Below, piece after piece: positions 9,203 through 19,703 of a stretch of 28,364 nucleotides of DNA (positions within the stretch are counted from its first letter, which is position 1; every line of letters starts with the position of its first letter). The notes under the pieces were generated by a model. It had not been told where the DNA came from, did not search any database, and worked only from the letters and a program-made list of their open reading frames with translations. Made by a program: the position numbers and the translations under genes. Origin of the DNA: a virus; the IMG/VR virus record IMGVR_UViG_3300038701_002066, positions 1 through 28,364 of that record; one strand, 5' to 3'.

Positions 9203-12200
9203 TGAACGCGAAGAACTCGAAGCCCTGCGCAAGCGACGCCGTTTGGCTGAGCTTGAAGCCAAGGCGTCAGGTGGGCAGCAACAGCCTGTAGATCCAAACC
9301 TGCAAAATTTTGCTGTGCCTGATCGTATGGCGGGCTTGCCCATGCCGTTTGCGGGTGAGCCGACAGATTATATGACTGACAGCTTGTCAGGCTTCGGTGT
9401 TTCTGTTCCAAGTGGTGCGCCGGATTCGGTAAAGTCTGCGATGGTGGAAGGGGCCAGAAATGAACACAGAGATCGTCAAGCCAAAACGCGGCTCGCGGTT
9501 AAAGGTAAGCTCGCTTCTATTACTTCCCCTGGTCGTTTTGCATCCCGTGGCTTTGGTGCGCTTTCTGGCGATAGTGAGCGCGATGACATTCGAGCGCTTG
9601 AAAGAACTGGTGCTTTCGCGTCGGGCGTTGAAGACTTTGGAACATTCGGATACTCAGACGAACTTCACGGACTGACAGGCGGGCCAGAAGCGCTTTCTCG
9701 GCAACGAACTTCTGTAAAAGACGCTTGGGAACAGCACCCCGTTTCCACACTGGCAGGCGGCGCAACCACATTTGCGCTTCCAGGACAGCAGGTGCGCGGC
9801 GCATCGACTGGCGGCAAGGTTGCCAGCGGTATGCTGCGCGGCGGCATCTGGGGCGGCTTGTATGGCTCTGGATCAGGTGAAGACACCGCAGATCGATTTT
9901 TGAAGGCGGGCCTGTACGGCACAGGCGGTGCACTAACGGGCGGATCACTTGTTGCTGGTGGTCGCGGCGTTGACTTTCTTGCTCGCAAGCTTCCGGGCTC
10001 TGCTGAACTGCGCGCCCTGACAAGCAAGATTGTTGGAAACAAGAGCCTTACCACTGTAGAGATCAAAGCCCTTGAAGGGGCCATTTCAGAGGTTCAGACC
10101 GTCGCTCGGGCCAATGGCCGCAAGATTGATCGCGGCGCGGCCAGGAATGAGCTGATTGCAGCAATGCGCGGTGGACGCCCTAATGACTTCATGTTTGAGG
10201 CACTTGGCGAGGAAGGCGTAATTGCCGCTCAGGGCGCAGCCCAGCCAGGAATGGCGGGCGCAACGGACATAGCTGAGGCGCTCGGTCGGCGTGGCGAGGA
10301 ACAATATGCTCGCATTAACTCGGCGGTGTCGAAACTGGCGGGTGGCAAAAACATCTCCAGCAGTCTGGAAGAACTTGGCCGCGTCAAGAAGGACGAAGCG
10401 TCACCGATTTATGAGCAGGCCTATAAGGTGCCTGTGAATGTTAATTCGCCTGAGTTCCAGGCGGTAGAGTTAACACGTAGACTTCCTGAGTTTCAAGCTG
10501 GGCAAACGCGCGGTGAACGCATTTGGCGCCTTGAGACAAACAACCCAGACGGCAAGTTCAAGCAGCTGCCCTATTTCCGACAGATCCAGTACATCAAAGA
10601 AGGCGTTGATGATCAGATTGGCAGCTTAATCAAAAAAGGTGACCTAGCTCAGGCTGGAGCGCTAATAGGCCGCAAAAATGAGTGGCTTGGGCAGGTCGAT
10701 ACCATGAACCCGCTTTATGGTGATGCTCGCCAAATGTGGGCGGGGGCGGCAGCGCAAAAGAACGCGCTTGAGCTTGGCGAGAAGATGCTCGGAACGCCGG
10801 GCTACTCGCCTACAGGTGCGCGCTGGCGTGAGATTCAGGCGGCTTATGCCAAGATGTCAGAGGCCGAAAAGGTGGCGTTTTCTGTTGGCATGTATGATCG
10901 GGCTATTCAGATGGCTGGCGATCAGGCGGCGACGGCGACAGGAAATAGTGTTTCACGCCGCATGATGACCCCCAATACTGAGCAGCGTATTCGGGAAATC
11001 TTGCCCGCAGAGCAGGCCGATGAGTTCTTGGAGCTGATCAATCGCGAATATACGCAGCAAGTGACCGCAAATCGGGTGCTTCCAGCTGCGGGCTCAAAGA
11101 CCAGCAGCGCGATGAATGCTGTTGATGCTGTGCGAGCTGCAACGGGTGGCGCGCGCGCTGTCGCGGGCCAGCTGGCAGAGCCCCAGCGTCTTCTTGGGCG
11201 CGCTCAACAGGGCGCTCGCGAGTGGATGGAAAACAATGCGAAGCGGCAAGGCTCGCTTACGCAGTTCTTGTTGCGTCAGGTAGATGATCCTGAGCTTCAA
11301 AAGGCGCTTGGGCTGGCATCACCTGACCCGCAGCTACCGCCCCCATCAGGTGGCTCAGCACCCCCAGTTGCAAACACTTTCGATCAGCGCACAAGCCAAT
11401 TCCCGCGCACGTCAACCGCTGACGTGCCGGAAGCACCTTACTATCATGGCACTAGTCGGCCATTTGACGGCTCCCTCGATCCAAACGCCCCCGCGTCATC
11501 AGCAGATAACATGGCTCGTGGAGGTGTGTTCATGTCAAGCAATCGAGACGTGGCCTCACAATACGCTCAGGGACCAAACGCACGGGTTTTGCCGGTCGAT
11601 CCGAAAGTCAAAAACCCGATGACCACTGACATGGGCGGTGTAGAGGCAAATGATCAAGCAATTCAGCGCCTGATCGATGAGGCAAAGGCTGCAGGTCACG
11701 ACTCGCTGATCCTGCGAAACATCAAGGATGGCGCTTACAAGGATGCCCCTGTCTCTGATGTGATGGTCGTGTTCAGAGGTGAGGATGCGGTGATTGTGCC
11801 TGCGCCTGGAAGTGGCGCAAAGCCCGGCCTTATGGACCGCATCGCAGCCAAAGGAAAAGACAGTGAGCGAGGCAACATTGTAATTGATGGCCGCCCCATG
11901 CGCCGACAGGACGCAATGCGCGAGGCCAGATCAGCGGGCGGGGGTTCGTTCCCGACAGCTCCGGCTGCACCGGCTGCACGGCGCCCAGCGTCTACTGCTA
12001 TGGAGCAGGCGCGCGGAATAGGCGATAGCCCTTTGCTCCCATTGCTTCTAATGGGTGGCGGCGGAACTGCAGCAGTAGCGGGTATGAATCACTTCCTGAA
12101 CCGTCCTGATGCGGGCAATAAGGCGCAAGAGCCTGAAGCCTCACCACTTCAGCAGGCGATTCTGGGGCCTAGCCTGAAGCCTGACCTTAGCGGGCCTCAA

Positions 12201-15272: not shown

Positions 15273-15829
15273 TGCCAGATTATTTAGGGCCACAGGATGC
15301 CCCTTCTCGCATTGAGAAATTCCTGGATGAAATGAAAGCCATAGTCCGCGAGGTTCTGACAGAGCAGGCCCGCTTGAAGGATGACATGGTTCGCTTAAAG
15401 GCAGACAACGCAGACCATGCCGCCTTGCGCCGCGTACAGGACGAAATGCGCGTCTATGTGGACACGAAAACAGAGTCCGGAATTGATCGCGGTGTCAAAG
15501 CTCTTGAAGACAAGGTTGGTCTGGCCCGCTCGTCCATCCTGACGGAAACAGAAAAAATGATCGTTACACGCCTGAATGATTGGGCAGACGAGCGCTTGCA
15601 GCCGATGCTTGATGAGATCTTGTTGAGCCGTGAGAGGCAGGCCGAAAAAGATCGCGAGATGCGCTGGCAGAAGGTCAAAAATCGCATTACAACTGTCACT
15701 TCAGTTATCGCGCTGATCACAGCGATCGTGCTGTTTGTGATGTCCTTGCAGAACCAAGGACAGCCAAGCGACGCGAAGCACTTAGACAGGCTCAACAGCG
15801 TTGGTGACGCGGCTCTGAGCATACAATAG
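15272..15829 (+). CDS. Coiled-coil protein with C-terminal membrane anchor
   Basis: A 185-residue protein beginning MPDYLGPQDAPSRIEKFLDE. Residues about 15-135 are charged and heptad-like (IVREVLTEQARLKDDMVRLK, DEILLSRERQAEKDREMRWQ). A single hydrophobic segment ITTVTSVIALITAIVLFVMS lies at about 139-159, followed by a short polar tail. With the basic flank KVKNR before the segment the coiled coil is expected on the cytoplasmic side. The start overlaps the PAS gene (TAATG). It resembles phage holin-associated or XhlA-like tail-anchored proteins only in general shape; direct lysis function is an inference. Confidence 0.6.
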   Translation: MPDYLGPQDAPSRIEKFLDEMKAIVREVLTEQARLKDDMVRLKADNADHAALRRVQDEMRVYVDTKTESGIDRGVKALEDKVGLARSSILTETEKMIVTRLNDWADERLQPMLDEILLSRERQAEKDREMRWQKVKNRITTVTSVIALITAIVLFVMSLQNQGQPSDAKHLDRLNSVGDAALSIQ

Positions 15830-15838
15830 GGGCATTTA

Positions 15839-17215
15839 ATGGCATTACCGTTTCTTCGGGGTGAGACCGAAGAGAACGCGACGCAGACTCTTGCGTTCGT
15901 GTCCATCGTCATCGTGACGCTTGGTCTCGCTGTATTCAACGTATGTGGAGCGATTGCGGGCTCTCAGTCAGATAGCTGGCTAGAGGTTGTTATTCGCGGC
16001 GCATTCGGGCTGGTCATTACCGGCGCGGAGTTCCTGGCTGCTGTGGCGCTTGTTCGCGTCATGCTGGCCAAGAACACGCTGCGTAAGGTGGTTGGTACAA
16101 TCATCTTTATCGGTCTTGCATGGGTCTGCATCCAAAACGGCAAGCGCGCGGCTCACCTGATCTTCCCCGAGTTCGAGCAGAGCGCGGCGCTATTGGAAGC
16201 CAAGGCAGGTATTGCCGCTGAGCAGGAAACAGAGCGTCAGGCGGCGCAGGAACGCTCACAGGAGGCACTGCCTGCGCTTCTGGCCAGTGTGCAGCAAGAC
16301 CTTGCAGATGCGCGCCGGGAGCAGCGTCTATTGCAGGCACAGAGCCCTGAGAAGATTGCCGAGATGCAGCAGATGCTGATCACGAATGGTTATTACTTCT
16401 ATCAGGTAGACGGCAAGATTGGGCCTGAGACAGAACGCGCTATGCGATCGATGGGCGAGGATTTGCGCAACCGCATTGAGAGCCTGACCGATCAGGAACA
16501 GAACCTGATGGCCGGATTGACCGCTGCGCCCGCTATCGTAGCTGTCAGCGCTGACAATCTGACCCCAGCGGCTCAACAGGCTGTGTTAGCTGATCAAGCC
16601 CGTCAGGCACGTCGAGCCGCCATCTGGATAGAGATCATGCTCTGGGTGGTCGAGGGCGCTCGCTCATTTGGCCTGTGGGCGCTTGTGACGACCATCACAG
16701 CGAAAGACCAGAAAGACCCCACACGCTCAGAAGCTGCCAGAAAGGGTTGGCAGACCCGCAAGAGCGCAGAAGAGGAAGAACGCGAACAGCTCAAGATTGA
16801 TGATGGTCCTTACTGGTCCCTGAAAATCATCAAGGCGCTCAATAACGGTATGCCGAAGCGCACGGTTAAGGGCACAATGCGGACGTTCTTTTCCAACATG
16901 GAGCCGAATGCCGTCAAGCTACGCCTGACGCGCCTCATGGACGCTCGCTTAGAGCTTCCCAAGGGCTTCTACAAAGACGGCAAGGGCGACGTGAAACGCG
17001 CTGACAGAGCCATTGAGCGTGGCTTCCTGAGCGAAGACCGCAAGACATACCTGATGCAGGAGCATATTGATTACATCCTGATGGAGGGTGAATACGCGCC
17101 CAAAAAGAAGGCCGACAAAAAGCCCAAGCAAGAGACGAACGGCAAGGACCATTCAACCGATTTAACAATTCCAGAATTGGGGCATGACGACAATGTTGAC
17201 AGACCAGAGGCTTGA
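15839..17215 (+). CDS. Four-TM membrane protein with periplasmic PG-binding-like loop
   Basis: A 458-residue membrane protein. Hydrophobic segments at about 18-40, 48-76 and 83-99 are followed by a roughly 160-residue loop, a fourth segment at about 262-287, and a charged C-terminal domain (about 288-458). Within the loop, a coiled coil (SALLEAKAGIAAEQETERQA) precedes MQQMLITNGYYFYQVDGKIG and PETERAM (176-202), the pattern of a PG_binding_1 domain (LxxxGYY, VDGxxGPxT). With three N-terminal TM segments this loop is periplasmic, where peptidoglycan lies. The C-terminal part is basic and helical and could be a winged-helix or membrane-surface domain. AGGGG precedes the ATG. A lysis or envelope-anchoring function is inferred from the neighbouring endolysin. 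Confidence 0.68.
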   Translation: MALPFLRGETEENATQTLAFVSIVIVTLGLAVFNVCGAIAGSQSDSWLEVVIRGAFGLVITGAEFLAAVALVRVMLAKNTLRKVVGTIIFIGLAWVCIQNGKRAAHLIFPEFEQSAALLEAKAGIAAEQETERQAAQERSQEALPALLASVQQDLADARREQRLLQAQSPEKIAEMQQMLITNGYYFYQVDGKIGPETERAMRSMGEDLRNRIESLTDQEQNLMAGLTAAPAIVAVSADNLTPAAQQAVLADQARQARRAAIWIEIMLWVVEGARSFGLWALVTTITAKDQKDPTRSEAARKGWQTRKSAEEEEREQLKIDDGPYWSLKIIKALNNGMPKRTVKGTMRTFFSNMEPNAVKLRLTRLMDARLELPKGFYKDGKGDVKRADRAIERGFLSEDRKTYLMQEHIDYILMEGEYAPKKKADKKPKQETNGKDHSTDLTIPELGHDDNVDRPEA

Positions 17216-18299
17216 GGAATTTCTATTCATAAGCGAAGGCGGAAACCGCAAGGCCTATGATGACAAGCAGCCTTGGCTTGACCTGAAGCCAGGGGACGAG
17301 ATCAAGGGAACGCTGACCTATGGTCCGGGGTTCACCGCTCGACCCGATGGAAGCCCCGTGCAGATCGGTGACACCATGACCGATCAGGAGGCCTATGACC
17401 GCCTGAAGCAATACATCAAAAGCGAGATTGAGCCGGTCCTGGAGGACCTTGTTCACGTCCCGATTGCGGCGAGCATGGCAAATGCGCTTGGCTCGCTGGT
17501 GTTCAATTTCGGGGCGTCAGAGGTTTACAAGTGGCGCCTGTGGGGCCGCATCAATTCCGGCGAGCCGCCAGCCCAGATCATCAAGGAATGGGTGACAGGA
17601 ACGTTCTTCTCAGGTGGTGAGCCGATGCTTGGCCTGTGGCGGCGACGGTTCAAGGAGCTGGCGCTTGCGTTCGATGTGGACTGGCGCGCCGGCGATAATG
17701 CCGATTGGGAAACGGACCCAGAAGAGTTCCTGCAAGTTCTCGGCTGGGATGGCACCATGCCTAAGCCCGCGCCTATCGTGCATGAGGATCTGTTCGAGCC
17801 GGTCCCAGAGCTTCCACCTGTCGGCACTGACCCCACGCCTGAGACAGGCTGGACAATGGATGACCGGCAGTATGACAGCGTTCGCGCTGGAGGCTTCCAG
17901 GGCACGTATGCAGAGTTCATGTCCCATCGCACAGTGGTCACGAAGCGCAACGCAATCGAAGCGCCTAAGATCGATGTTACCAAGCCACCTAAGCCGATGG
18001 AAGACAGCGAGACGCATCGCGGCCTTGCGAAGCAAACGGCAGGCAAGGAAAACATTACGCTCGGCACCACGCTTACAGGGGCCGCTGCGACGGCTGCAAC
18101 CGTTCGTGAGCTGACCCGAGACGCTACAGCGACGGTTGAGACTGCCAGCCCTGTGGTTGGCGGCTTCACCGCAAATCATTTCATTCTGATTGGCCTTTGC
18201 ATTGGTATTCCGCTCTTCCTGTATGGCGCGTTCAAAGCGTTCCGGGGCTGGCAGATTGCCCGCCAGGGCCGTGAGCAGGGGGTTCAATTGAAAGTATGA
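17184..18299 (+). CDS. GH24-type endolysin with C-terminal transmembrane segment
   Basis: A 371-residue protein; ATG 17193 (Met4) is an alternative start with better spacing to GGGG at 17179-17182. Residues 10-190 resemble T4/P22-type lysozymes: the catalytic Glu18 in SEGGNRKAYDD, Asp27 nine residues later, then KGTLTYGPGFT in place of the usual TIGYGHT, and IGDTMTDQEAYDRL. The gap between Asp27 and the expected Thr (43) is about ten residues longer than in T4 lysozyme, an insertion (KQPWLDLKPGDEIKG). A Pro-rich linker leads to a hydrophobic segment HFILIGLCIGIPLFLYGAF at 332-350 and a basic tail. The C-terminal TM is unusual; export is unexplained, since no N-terminal signal or SAR segment is visible. 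It cleaves the glycan strands of peptidoglycan. Confidence 0.82.
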   Translation: MTTMLTDQRLEEFLFISEGGNRKAYDDKQPWLDLKPGDEIKGTLTYGPGFTARPDGSPVQIGDTMTDQEAYDRLKQYIKSEIEPVLEDLVHVPIAASMANALGSLVFNFGASEVYKWRLWGRINSGEPPAQIIKEWVTGTFFSGGEPMLGLWRRRFKELALAFDVDWRAGDNADWETDPEEFLQVLGWDGTMPKPAPIVHEDLFEPVPELPPVGTDPTPETGWTMDDRQYDSVRAGGFQGTYAEFMSHRTVVTKRNAIEAPKIDVTKPPKPMEDSETHRGLAKQTAGKENITLGTTLTGAAATAATVRELTRDATATVETASPVVGGFTANHFILIGLCIGIPLFLYGAFKAFRGWQIARQGREQGVQLKV

Positions 18300-18740: not shown

Positions 18741-18904
18741 ACGAGATCCGCAAGGACAAGCTCCTCGCCAATGCCCACCGCCTGCATTCAGGCAAGGGCT
18801 TGAAGCGCCCCCAGCTCAAGTCAAAGCAATCGTCCTGGCATCTCACACTTGCAATGATTGTCGTAGTCTGCGGACTCGGGCTGGTGTTCTATGCGGGCAA
18901 CTAA
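18731..18904 (+). CDS. Small single-TM protein, holin candidate
   Basis: A 57-residue protein (MRLDEIRKDKLLANAHRLHS ... SSWHLTLAMIVVVCGLGLVFYAGN). The first 35 residues are basic and polar; the hydrophobic segment WHLTLAMIVVVCGLGLVFYA is at the C-terminus, giving an N-in, C-out topology. GGGAAG precedes ATG 18731, which overlaps the o-spanin stop. Size and location fit a small holin or holin regulator but single-TM proteins of this kind are not recognisable by sequence. No other clear holin is visible in the cassette. Confidence 0.62.
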   Translation: MRLDEIRKDKLLANAHRLHSGKGLKRPQLKSKQSSWHLTLAMIVVVCGLGLVFYAGN

Positions 18905-19277
18905 GCAGATTGCGTATCAACGGCCTGTGAAGAAAGCTCAGGCCATTCAGCTCAAAGGCGTGGTCTGGTTCTTCCTGTTCTTCATGGCCCTTCTGGCATA
19001 CGCTGTATGGGCGACAGCAAGCCTCTATTCGAACCGCCAATATACCGCACTCGGAAAAGCGGTTCAGTGTGTTGAGCGGCCAAGCTACGAGTATTTCAAA
19101 TTTTGCAACGGTTTGGTTGACGGAAGCGCCTGCATGCTCGCGAGCCAATCGCGCATGATGCAGTGGTATGATCCGATTGATGAAGCCTGCGCACAGTTTG
19201 AGCCGAAGAGAAGCTTCGTGTTTGAAGTGCCAAACCCGGAGAGAGATACACTTGAAGTTGCTGAACAAGCAGGGTAG
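18891..19277 (+). CDS. Single-TM protein with Cys-rich periplasmic part
   Basis: A 128-residue protein whose start overlaps the previous gene by 14 bases. A basic N-terminus (RATKQIAYQRPVKKAQ) precedes a TM segment at about 24-46 (VVWFFLFFMALLAYAVWATA). The following 80 residues contain four Cys (CVERPSY, KFCNGL, SACMLAS, DEACAQF) and are expected in the oxidising periplasm, where two disulfides could form. It is the last gene of the plus-strand late operon. It may be a lysis accessory or antiholin-type protein, or an exclusion factor; no family is recognised. Confidence 0.6.
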   Translation: MRATKQIAYQRPVKKAQAIQLKGVVWFFLFFMALLAYAVWATASLYSNRQYTALGKAVQCVERPSYEYFKFCNGLVDGSACMLASQSRMMQWYDPIDEACAQFEPKRSFVFEVPNPERDTLEVAEQAG

Positions 19278-19481
19278 AATCTGAGGGCTGCGGCGGCGTG
19301 GAAAGTAGACACGCGATGAGTGGCTTAAGCTGATCTGTACGAGGCATCGGCATTTCGGTCAAAAGGCCTCCATGAGTACCGAGAGCTCGGAGTCTTGAGC
19401 AGCTTCACGGCAGTGGGGCATGACGGGAATAAGCACCCCCTTTATTCAGTCAGAGTAACGCCTGACCCGCAGCGATCTCCT
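19278..19481 (+). other. Gene-free segment after the late operon
   Basis: About 200 bases hold no gene on either strand. Several small stems are visible: GCGTG (19296-19300) with CACGC (19310-19314) around a nine-base loop, CCGA..TCGG near 19380-19390, and GGGG (19415-19418) with CCCCC (19436-19440) followed by TTTATT, which could be a weak terminator. No ribosome site or long open frame is present. It may be a 3' untranslated region or a structured RNA. Confidence 0.45.
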
Positions 19482-19508
19482 TTGAACCGCCACAATTTAT
19501 GATACAAT
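19482..19508 (+). promoter_or_regulatory. Predicted promoter of the small RNA
   Basis: TTGAAC (19482-19487) and TACAAT (19503-19508) resemble -35 and -10 boxes of a sigma-70-type promoter. The spacer is 15 bases; reading the -35 as TTTGAA or CTTTGA gives 16 or 17. The expected start is about 19515, exactly where the first stem of the RNA candidate begins. No gene follows within reach on this strand. Confidence 0.45.
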
Positions 19509-19513
19509 GAGAT

Positions 19514-19606
19514 AACCGGAGCGAGTTGCGTATTATGCCCCCTTACGCGGGTAGCTCGGTTGGAAACCCCCGGACTCCGCTTGTAAGTGGTGCCGGGGGT
19601 TTTTTT
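19514..19606 (+). ncRNA. Candidate small structured RNA (about 93 nt)
   Basis: Beginning at the expected start of the preceding promoter, AACCGGAGC (19514-19522) pairs with GCTCGGTT (19554-19561) with one bulged G. Inside this, GCGTA (19528-19532) pairs with TACGC (19544-19548). A second hairpin follows, CCCCCGG (19567-19573) with CCGGGGG (19593-19599), extended by A/T pairs, and seven Ts end it. The whole is non-coding: no start codon with a ribosome site lies in it. Phage small RNAs of such size can regulate or act as decoys; target and function are unknown. It could also be just a structured 3' end of the late transcript. Confidence 0.5.
19564..19606 (+). terminator. Strong intrinsic terminator between convergent operons
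   Basis: AAACCCCCGG (19564-19573) pairs with CCGGGGGTTT (19593-19602), ten base pairs, followed by a run of seven Ts (19600-19606). A smaller stem, CCGCTT/AAGTGG, folds within the loop. It ends plus-strand transcription. On the other strand the hairpin is followed by only three Us, so it may end the leftward operon less efficiently; the T-run overlaps the TAA of the last leftward gene. Confidence 0.85.
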
Positions 19607-19703
19607 ATATGCGTTCCCAAATCGAGATGATAGCCGCGAGAAGGCCAACCCCAAAACCGATCATGACCAGCTGGTAAAACGGAATCGGTTTTCTCTTGTC
19701 CAT
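19605..19703 (-). CDS. 32-residue membrane peptide
   Basis: An open frame of 32 residues (MDKRKPIPFYQLVMIGFGVG then LLAAIISIWERI): a basic N-terminus followed by one hydrophobic segment of about 20 residues. A GGGGGAGAG ribosome site ends three bases before the ATG. It is the last gene of the leftward block, and its TAA lies in the T-run of the terminator. Small single-TM peptides of this type are common in phage accessory blocks; a function cannot be inferred. Confidence 0.6.
   Translation of the reverse strand: MDKRKPIPFYQLVMIGFGVGLLAAIISIWERI

Follow-up and report, generated by a model that had tools for sequence, protein, structure and literature searches.

A Predicted Family of Phage Small RNAs at the End of the Lysis Cassette, with a C-rich Loop Complementary to Lysis-gene Shine-Dalgarno Sequences

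Results

A Predicted Small RNA Between Two Convergent Gene Blocks

The unit at 19482–19606 of the 28,364-base IMG/VR virus record IMGVR_UViG_3300038701_002066 (the whole stretch analyzed, hereafter the window) is predicted to encode a member of a new phage small RNA (sRNA) family, since its promoter is conserved, compensatory changes occur in both of its hairpins, and no Rfam family matches it. Comparison of related loci, which are designated by L numbers, places a gene for this predicted sRNA where the lysis cassette ends in a group of podovirus-like phages and prophages. Repression of lysis-gene translation is our leading inference on its function and not a result. A preliminary description of the DNA had proposed a small regulatory RNA at this place; the covariation supports this proposal, and we infer that the RNA is transcribed and regulatory.

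The window carries a podovirus-like phage, with stabilization and head proteins, a DNA ejection protein, a lysozyme, and a Sak4-like annealing protein, and the host of the virus is probably an alphaproteobacterium. The + strand late operon closes with a lysis cassette, which includes spanin-like small proteins in addition to the genes in Table 1, and the − strand carries the accessory genes from 19838 onward. The unit sits between the two, as had been noted before, and the same convergent arrangement was found in the relatives with enough flanking sequence. The earlier observation that no ORF explains the unit also held: no + strand ORF of at least 50 aa was present at 19482–19606, where the three + frames are short and interrupted, and a 70-aa minus-strand ORF that overlaps the unit (19442–19654) shows no sign of being a gene. 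A tRNA/tmRNA search of the window found none. In two relatives, Hsp70/DnaK-like genes were observed within the lysis region, between the membrane-protein and endolysin genes (L002, 7017–8522; L051, 10511–11983).

Table 1. Positions of the predicted sRNA, its parts, and the neighboring features (window coordinates unless a locus is named)
Feature	Position	Strand	Basis or remark
Lysis-cassette membrane protein, peptidoglycan-binding-like domain	15839–17215	+	
Proposed pairing site ATAGGGGCATTTAATG, SD and start of membrane-protein gene	15826–15841	+	7-nt complement
Endolysin gene	17193–18299	+	Phage_lysozyme PF00959, E 4e-15
Proposed second pairing site GGGGCATGACGACAATG, SD and start of endolysin gene	17179–17195	+	9 bp, one G-U
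128-aa one-TM protein, lysis cassette	18891–19277	+	
Diverged structured element, closing stem GCTGCGG...CCGCAGC	19286–19474	+	Shared flanks, GGAAAG hairpin loop
Predicted sigma-70-type promoter	19482–19508	+	Sequence; conservation in relatives
Predicted small RNA, 5′ hairpin and intrinsic terminator, 93 nt	19514–19606	+	Fold, model matches, compensatory changes
5′ hairpin, begins at predicted +1	19514–19561	+	Sequence, fold, compensatory changes
Apical loop TTATGCCCCCT, proposed seed	19533–19543	+	Conserved (U/A)GCCCC
Intrinsic terminator	19564–19606	+	39/39 bases (19567–19605) identical in L002; inner-stem covariation
Skipping-rope RNA, L008	9693–9796		3′ end of phage late operon, directly upstream of sRNA promoter
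Skipping-rope RNA, L020	265–369		3′ end of phage late operon, directly upstream of sRNA promoter

Promoter, Hairpin, and Terminator

The promoter boxes reported previously were located as −35 TTGAAC (19482–19487) and −10 TACAAT (19503–19508), separated by a 15-nt spacer, and a TGA before TACAAT gives an extended −10 element (TGA-TACAAT, 19500–19508). A consensus promoter scan did not list this site because the scanner accepts spacers of 16–18 nt, and the same scan showed no enrichment of promoter-like sites in the region. A promoter and a terminator without conservation would not be convincing. In the nearest relative, L008, 30/34 to 31/36 promoter bases are identical, and the promoter is the best-conserved segment (30/34, versus 32/46 for the 5′ domain, 27/43 for the terminator, and 45/105 aligned bases downstream). 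The spacer element CGCCACA recurs in L014, L020, and L003 and, by the search pattern, in L050/L052.

The predicted transcript has the 93 nt that had been proposed for the transcription unit. It folds at −46.7 kcal/mol (z −4.0), and 0/200 shuffled sequences were as stable. The nested stem does begin at the expected +1, and its inner part pairs GCGTA (19528–19532) with TACGC (19544–19548). The outer stem, formed by AACC[G]GAGC (19514–19522) and GCTCGGTT (19554–19561), is present with eight pairs and one bulged G; as a small correction, it consists of two 4-bp helices around the one-base bulge. Likewise, the 10-bp terminator hairpin of that description exists as 10 outer pairs, made up of CCCCCGG...CCGGGGG (19567–19599) and an AAA/TTT extension and followed by a seven-T run (19600–19606), but the hairpin is not a plain one: it contains an internal loop and an inner stem, that is, a bulged A (A19574), one C-G pair, a U.U mismatch, a 5-bp inner stem, and a UGUA loop. 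We considered a switch in which the apical loop pairs with the GGGG of the terminator arm but discarded it, given the much greater stability of the terminator hairpin.

The terminator's internal loop reads GA(C/T)TC at 19573–19577 and at the equivalent positions in L002, L008, L014, and L017. This sequence fits GANTC, which CcrM methylates in alphaproteobacteria, and may be a coincidence of the RNA motif.

Related Loci

Near and distant nucleotide searches of annotated phages returned no homologue. Protein-guided and pattern-guided searches identified nine further distinct loci at the matching place, namely where the lysis cassette, or what remains of it, ends, with convergent accessory genes where these are visible; with the window, there are ten distinct members. 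They come from phage contigs and from prophage fragments of an uncultured Parvularcula and a related genome. In L002, positions 10726–10764, at the same genomic place, are identical to window positions 19567–19605 (39/39, including the loop), and the compared proteins of the two are about 56% identical. In L008, the promoter is nearly identical and the outer stem is re-paired; L014 and L020 are two prophage fragments from the same uncultured Parvularcula assembly.

A covariance model was trained on three sequences (the window, L008, and L014). Beyond this training set, it matched L017 (57 bits), L002 (42 bits), L020 (34 bits), L003/L006 (24 bits), and L007 (17 bits). The promoter-to-terminator pattern search added two more phage groups, L050/L051 and L052/L055; in both, the unit comes after genes for lysozyme, spanin-like, and small TM proteins. 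These loci score modestly with the model (19 bits), but their context and fold agree with the family. Two of the nine further loci are weak covariance-model matches. Of about 400 genomes that are related to the Parvularcula assembly, only that assembly and one other contained clear copies. The model matches L018 and L019, which lie in housekeeping genes or chromosomal DNA, were regarded as chance matches; the weak matches L024–L027 and L056–L058 were left out, and the pattern matches L048, L049, and L054 were rejected because they have no context in common with the family.

Several observations concern the surroundings of these loci. A second bulged-A terminator hairpin lies on the minus strand of L017 (1–73), downstream of the accessory region and cut by the contig end; it is perhaps another copy of the RNA or a common type of terminator. 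tRNA genes or tRNA 3′ ends and, in L003, an integrase gene (PF00589, E 2e-15) adjoining one of them were seen past the sRNA region (L003, 3838–3876 and 3900–5006; L020, 1788–1859; L014, 3018–3070; L007, about 11560–11600). These sites are likely attachment sites, so some of these phages would be temperate. The exact terminator core was absent from the bacterial genomes searched, which gives no evidence for the idea, considered and rejected, that the terminator represents a copied piece of a host gene serving as an attachment site.

Conservation of the Structure

All ten loci folded alike without constraints, with a hairpin starting at the predicted +1 and then a large terminator hairpin, and the 5′ hairpin ends at, or 1–2 bases from, the base of the terminator hairpin. 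An intrinsic terminator is present in 10/10 loci. The preliminary description had suggested looking for covariation in the outer stem, and compensatory changes are indeed present there across the homologous loci: the stem reads AACC/GGUU in the window, AGGC/GCCU in L008, AGUC/GAUU in L014, AAGC/GCUU in L017, ACAC/GUGU in L003, and CGCU/AGCG in L050 and L052. The inner stem of the terminator covaries in L008, L014, and L017. In the terminator stem, a bulged or mismatched A is usually accompanied by a single pair, a mismatch, and an inner stem of 5 bp. The apical loop is always C-rich, with (U/A)GCCCC, or GUGCCCC in L003.

In a sequence-only alignment of three members, two-sided changes occurred at 8/25 pairs, and 94.7% of the cells could pair, compared with 32–42% for slid structures. 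In the model-fitted alignment of eleven matches, which is biased toward the structure, the values were 19/25 pairs and 92.4%, compared with 35–40%. This covariation led us to reject a chance origin of the structure.

The suggested Rfam search was also carried out. None of the 4227 families of Rfam 15 reached its gathering threshold in the window region, and permissive thresholds also gave nothing for the sRNA. The best scores for the sRNA (anti-hemB, asX2, and TCV_H4; 13–17 bits, with gathering thresholds of 49.5, 70, and 50) are at chance level, and what these families have in common with it is the hairpin-terminator layout.

Complementarity of the Loop to Lysis-gene Start Regions

For every phage, the complementarity of the loop to the start regions of the phage's own genes was assessed. 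In the window, the loop sequence AUGCCCC is the 7-nt complement of GGGGCAU, and GGGGCAT occurs upstream of both 15839 and 17193; the pairing at the endolysin site (UUAUGCCCC/GGGGCAUGA) comprises 9 bp with one G-U. In 6/6 phages with readable starts, the syntenic membrane-protein gene has 6–8 contiguous complementary nt at its Shine-Dalgarno (SD) sequence, AGGGGC(A/U), and in all six this gene ranked within the top 2–3 of its genome or fragment by loop complementarity. The endolysin gene ties for the top complementarity in the window, L008, and L051, and GGGGC is absent from the endolysin start of L052.

Loop and target also agree in type: UGCCCC occurs with GGGGCA in the window and L008, and AGCCCC occurs with GGGGCU in L002, L007, L051, and L052. 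Matches between loops and targets of the same type span 6–8 nt, whereas those between different types mostly span 5 nt. The Fisher value of 0.003 is optimistic because the target gene was picked after the complementarity had been seen. The target membrane proteins form two families without mutual similarity, and both loop types occur with both families. The window and L008 have the DNA upstream of the target start in common, so a single event may account for the A/U match. Matches of 6–8 nt are short, and other genes had lower duplex energies in L008 and L002. In L009, whose contig ends at the relevant place, and in L010, no sRNA was detected, and the same AGGGGCUG SD was found at the membrane-protein gene and, in L009, at the endolysin gene as well, so the motif may have another cause. 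The unusual GGGGC SD was seen at three lysis-region genes of the window (15272, 15839, and 17193) and at their counterparts in L008.

Possible Function of the sRNA

Our preferred explanation, which we put forward tentatively and as somewhat short of an even chance, is that the unit is a stand-alone phage sRNA of about 93 nt, with its own promoter and terminator, whose loop represses the translation of lysis genes. The sRNA would be made from the sigma-70 promoter, and its 5′ hairpin, which begins at +1 and abuts the structured terminator, presents the C-rich loop. This loop, with UGCCCC in the window, would pair with the GGGGC(A/U) SD at the membrane-protein gene of the lysis cassette and, for several of the phages, also at the endolysin gene. 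Such pairing would lower the translation of the lysis genes, which could set the timing of lysis or keep these genes silent in lysogens and early in infection. The bulged-A stem of the terminator may, speculatively, bind a protein or stabilize the RNA.

A real phage sRNA might instead act with its loop mainly on host mRNAs containing G-tracts, or by sponging host sRNAs, the lysis-SD match being incidental. We consider this unlikely, although pairing of C-rich loops with G-tracts is an established mode in alphaproteobacteria (PMC5869019; PMC6234868), the known phage sRNAs PreS and VpdS act on host genes (PMC12197685), and the AGGGGC SD persists in relatives without a detected sRNA; the agreement between loop type and target nucleotide in 6/6 phages and the recurring top rank of lysis-cassette genes would be left unexplained. 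It is still less probable that the RNA acts through protein binding by the conserved bulged-A stem of the terminator, as a decoy or as a tag for an RNA-binding protein of the phage or the host. The 39/39 identity of the hairpin in the window and L002, despite the divergence of the compared proteins, would fit such a role, as would the recurrence of the bulged A, one pair, mismatch, 5-bp stem, and 4-nt loop while the stem pairs change, and the similar hairpin seen a second time in L017. However, L003, L050/L052, and L007 depart from the terminator motif, and the partner protein is only hypothetical.

The most improbable of the readings weighed here is that the unit only terminates the late operon, that its promoter is weak or fortuitous, and that a 3′-end fragment of the late transcript is what accumulates as the stable product. 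The position at the end of the late operon agrees with it, the stability of the terminator alone yields much of the fold score, and promoter-like sites arise by chance. Against it, the promoter is the segment conserved best, the predicted +1 coincides with the start of the 5′ hairpin, which covaries, and related bacterial skipping-rope loci have a terminator of their own and no such unit.

Among known systems, GsrN of Caulobacter crescentus, a precedent for the proposed kind of loop pairing, is a host-encoded sRNA controlled by the general stress sigma factor; it uses a 5′ C-rich loop to base-pair with a G-tract within an mRNA leader, and it activates katG (PMC5869019). It resembles the predicted sRNA in mode only, as an alphaproteobacterial small RNA with a C-rich loop directed at a G-tract; the window sRNA is phage-encoded at the lysis cassette, and repression rather than activation is proposed for it. 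PAK_P4as15 of Pseudomonas phage PAK_P4 is also a phage RNA proposed to repress an endolysin gene and thereby delay lysis, but it is an antisense RNA of about 550 nt acting in cis (PMC12197685), whereas the window sRNA has about 93 nt, lies apart from its proposed targets, and would pair through a short loop. PreS of lambda, which acts on dnaN, and VpdS of VP882, which acts on phage and host RNAs in quorum-sensing control, are likewise small phage-encoded RNAs thought to base-pair; both use Hfq (PMC12197685), and they differ from the window sRNA in structure, place, and hosts.

With the predicted sRNA, the short list of known phage-encoded small RNAs gains a family that covariation supports and that Rfam 15 lacks, and the translation of lysis genes offers a concrete, testable target. 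If the proposed repression is true, the timing of lysis in these phages would be set partly by an RNA.

Upstream Element and Skipping-rope RNA

Skipping-rope RNA (RF02924), for which a pseudoknot has been described (PMC7779021) and which is present among phage noncoding RNAs (PMC8501573), scored above the gathering cutoff of 36.7 bits in L008 (44.8 bits) and L020 (43.9 bits). It is a structured RNA of the same phages that adjoins the unit in these two loci, but it is a separate RNA, and the sRNA does not match RF02924. In L008 and L020, the skipping-rope RNA has no terminator of its own, whereas the bacterial copies L032–L034 and L036 have one. The bacterial skipping-rope loci, from genomes related to the Parvularcula assembly, are without this sRNA; therefore, the pairing of the two RNAs appears to be a feature of this phage group.

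In the window, RF02924 gave no Rfam match, and only the flanks and one hairpin are recognizable: the TAGAATCT..GCTGCGG and CCGCAGC flanks are common to the skipping-rope relatives, and the hairpin has a GGAAAG loop. The GCTGCGG...CCGCAGC closing sequences occur at the same place in L014 and L017, with no Rfam match where tested. The element at 19286–19474 is probably a diverged, enlarged skipping-rope derivative that the Rfam model misses.

It is conceivable, if rather doubtful, that the end of the late operon holds a two-RNA cassette, a skipping-rope RNA followed by the independently promoted C-rich-loop sRNA. The loop would co-evolve with the lysis-gene SD, and the sRNA would serve as a trans-acting brake on lysis. 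If true, this cassette would be a layer of control besides antiholins. The constant place of the sRNA beside the skipping-rope RNA would also offer a clue to what that Rfam family does.

By eye, a 9-bp pairing of the apical loop with the upstream element (GGGGCATGA, near 19416) can be drawn, in the window only. In L007, the upstream element (10590–10670) contains a tRNA T-arm-like sequence, GCGGGTTCGATTCCCGC, and a second hairpin, GTGGGATCGAAACCCAC.
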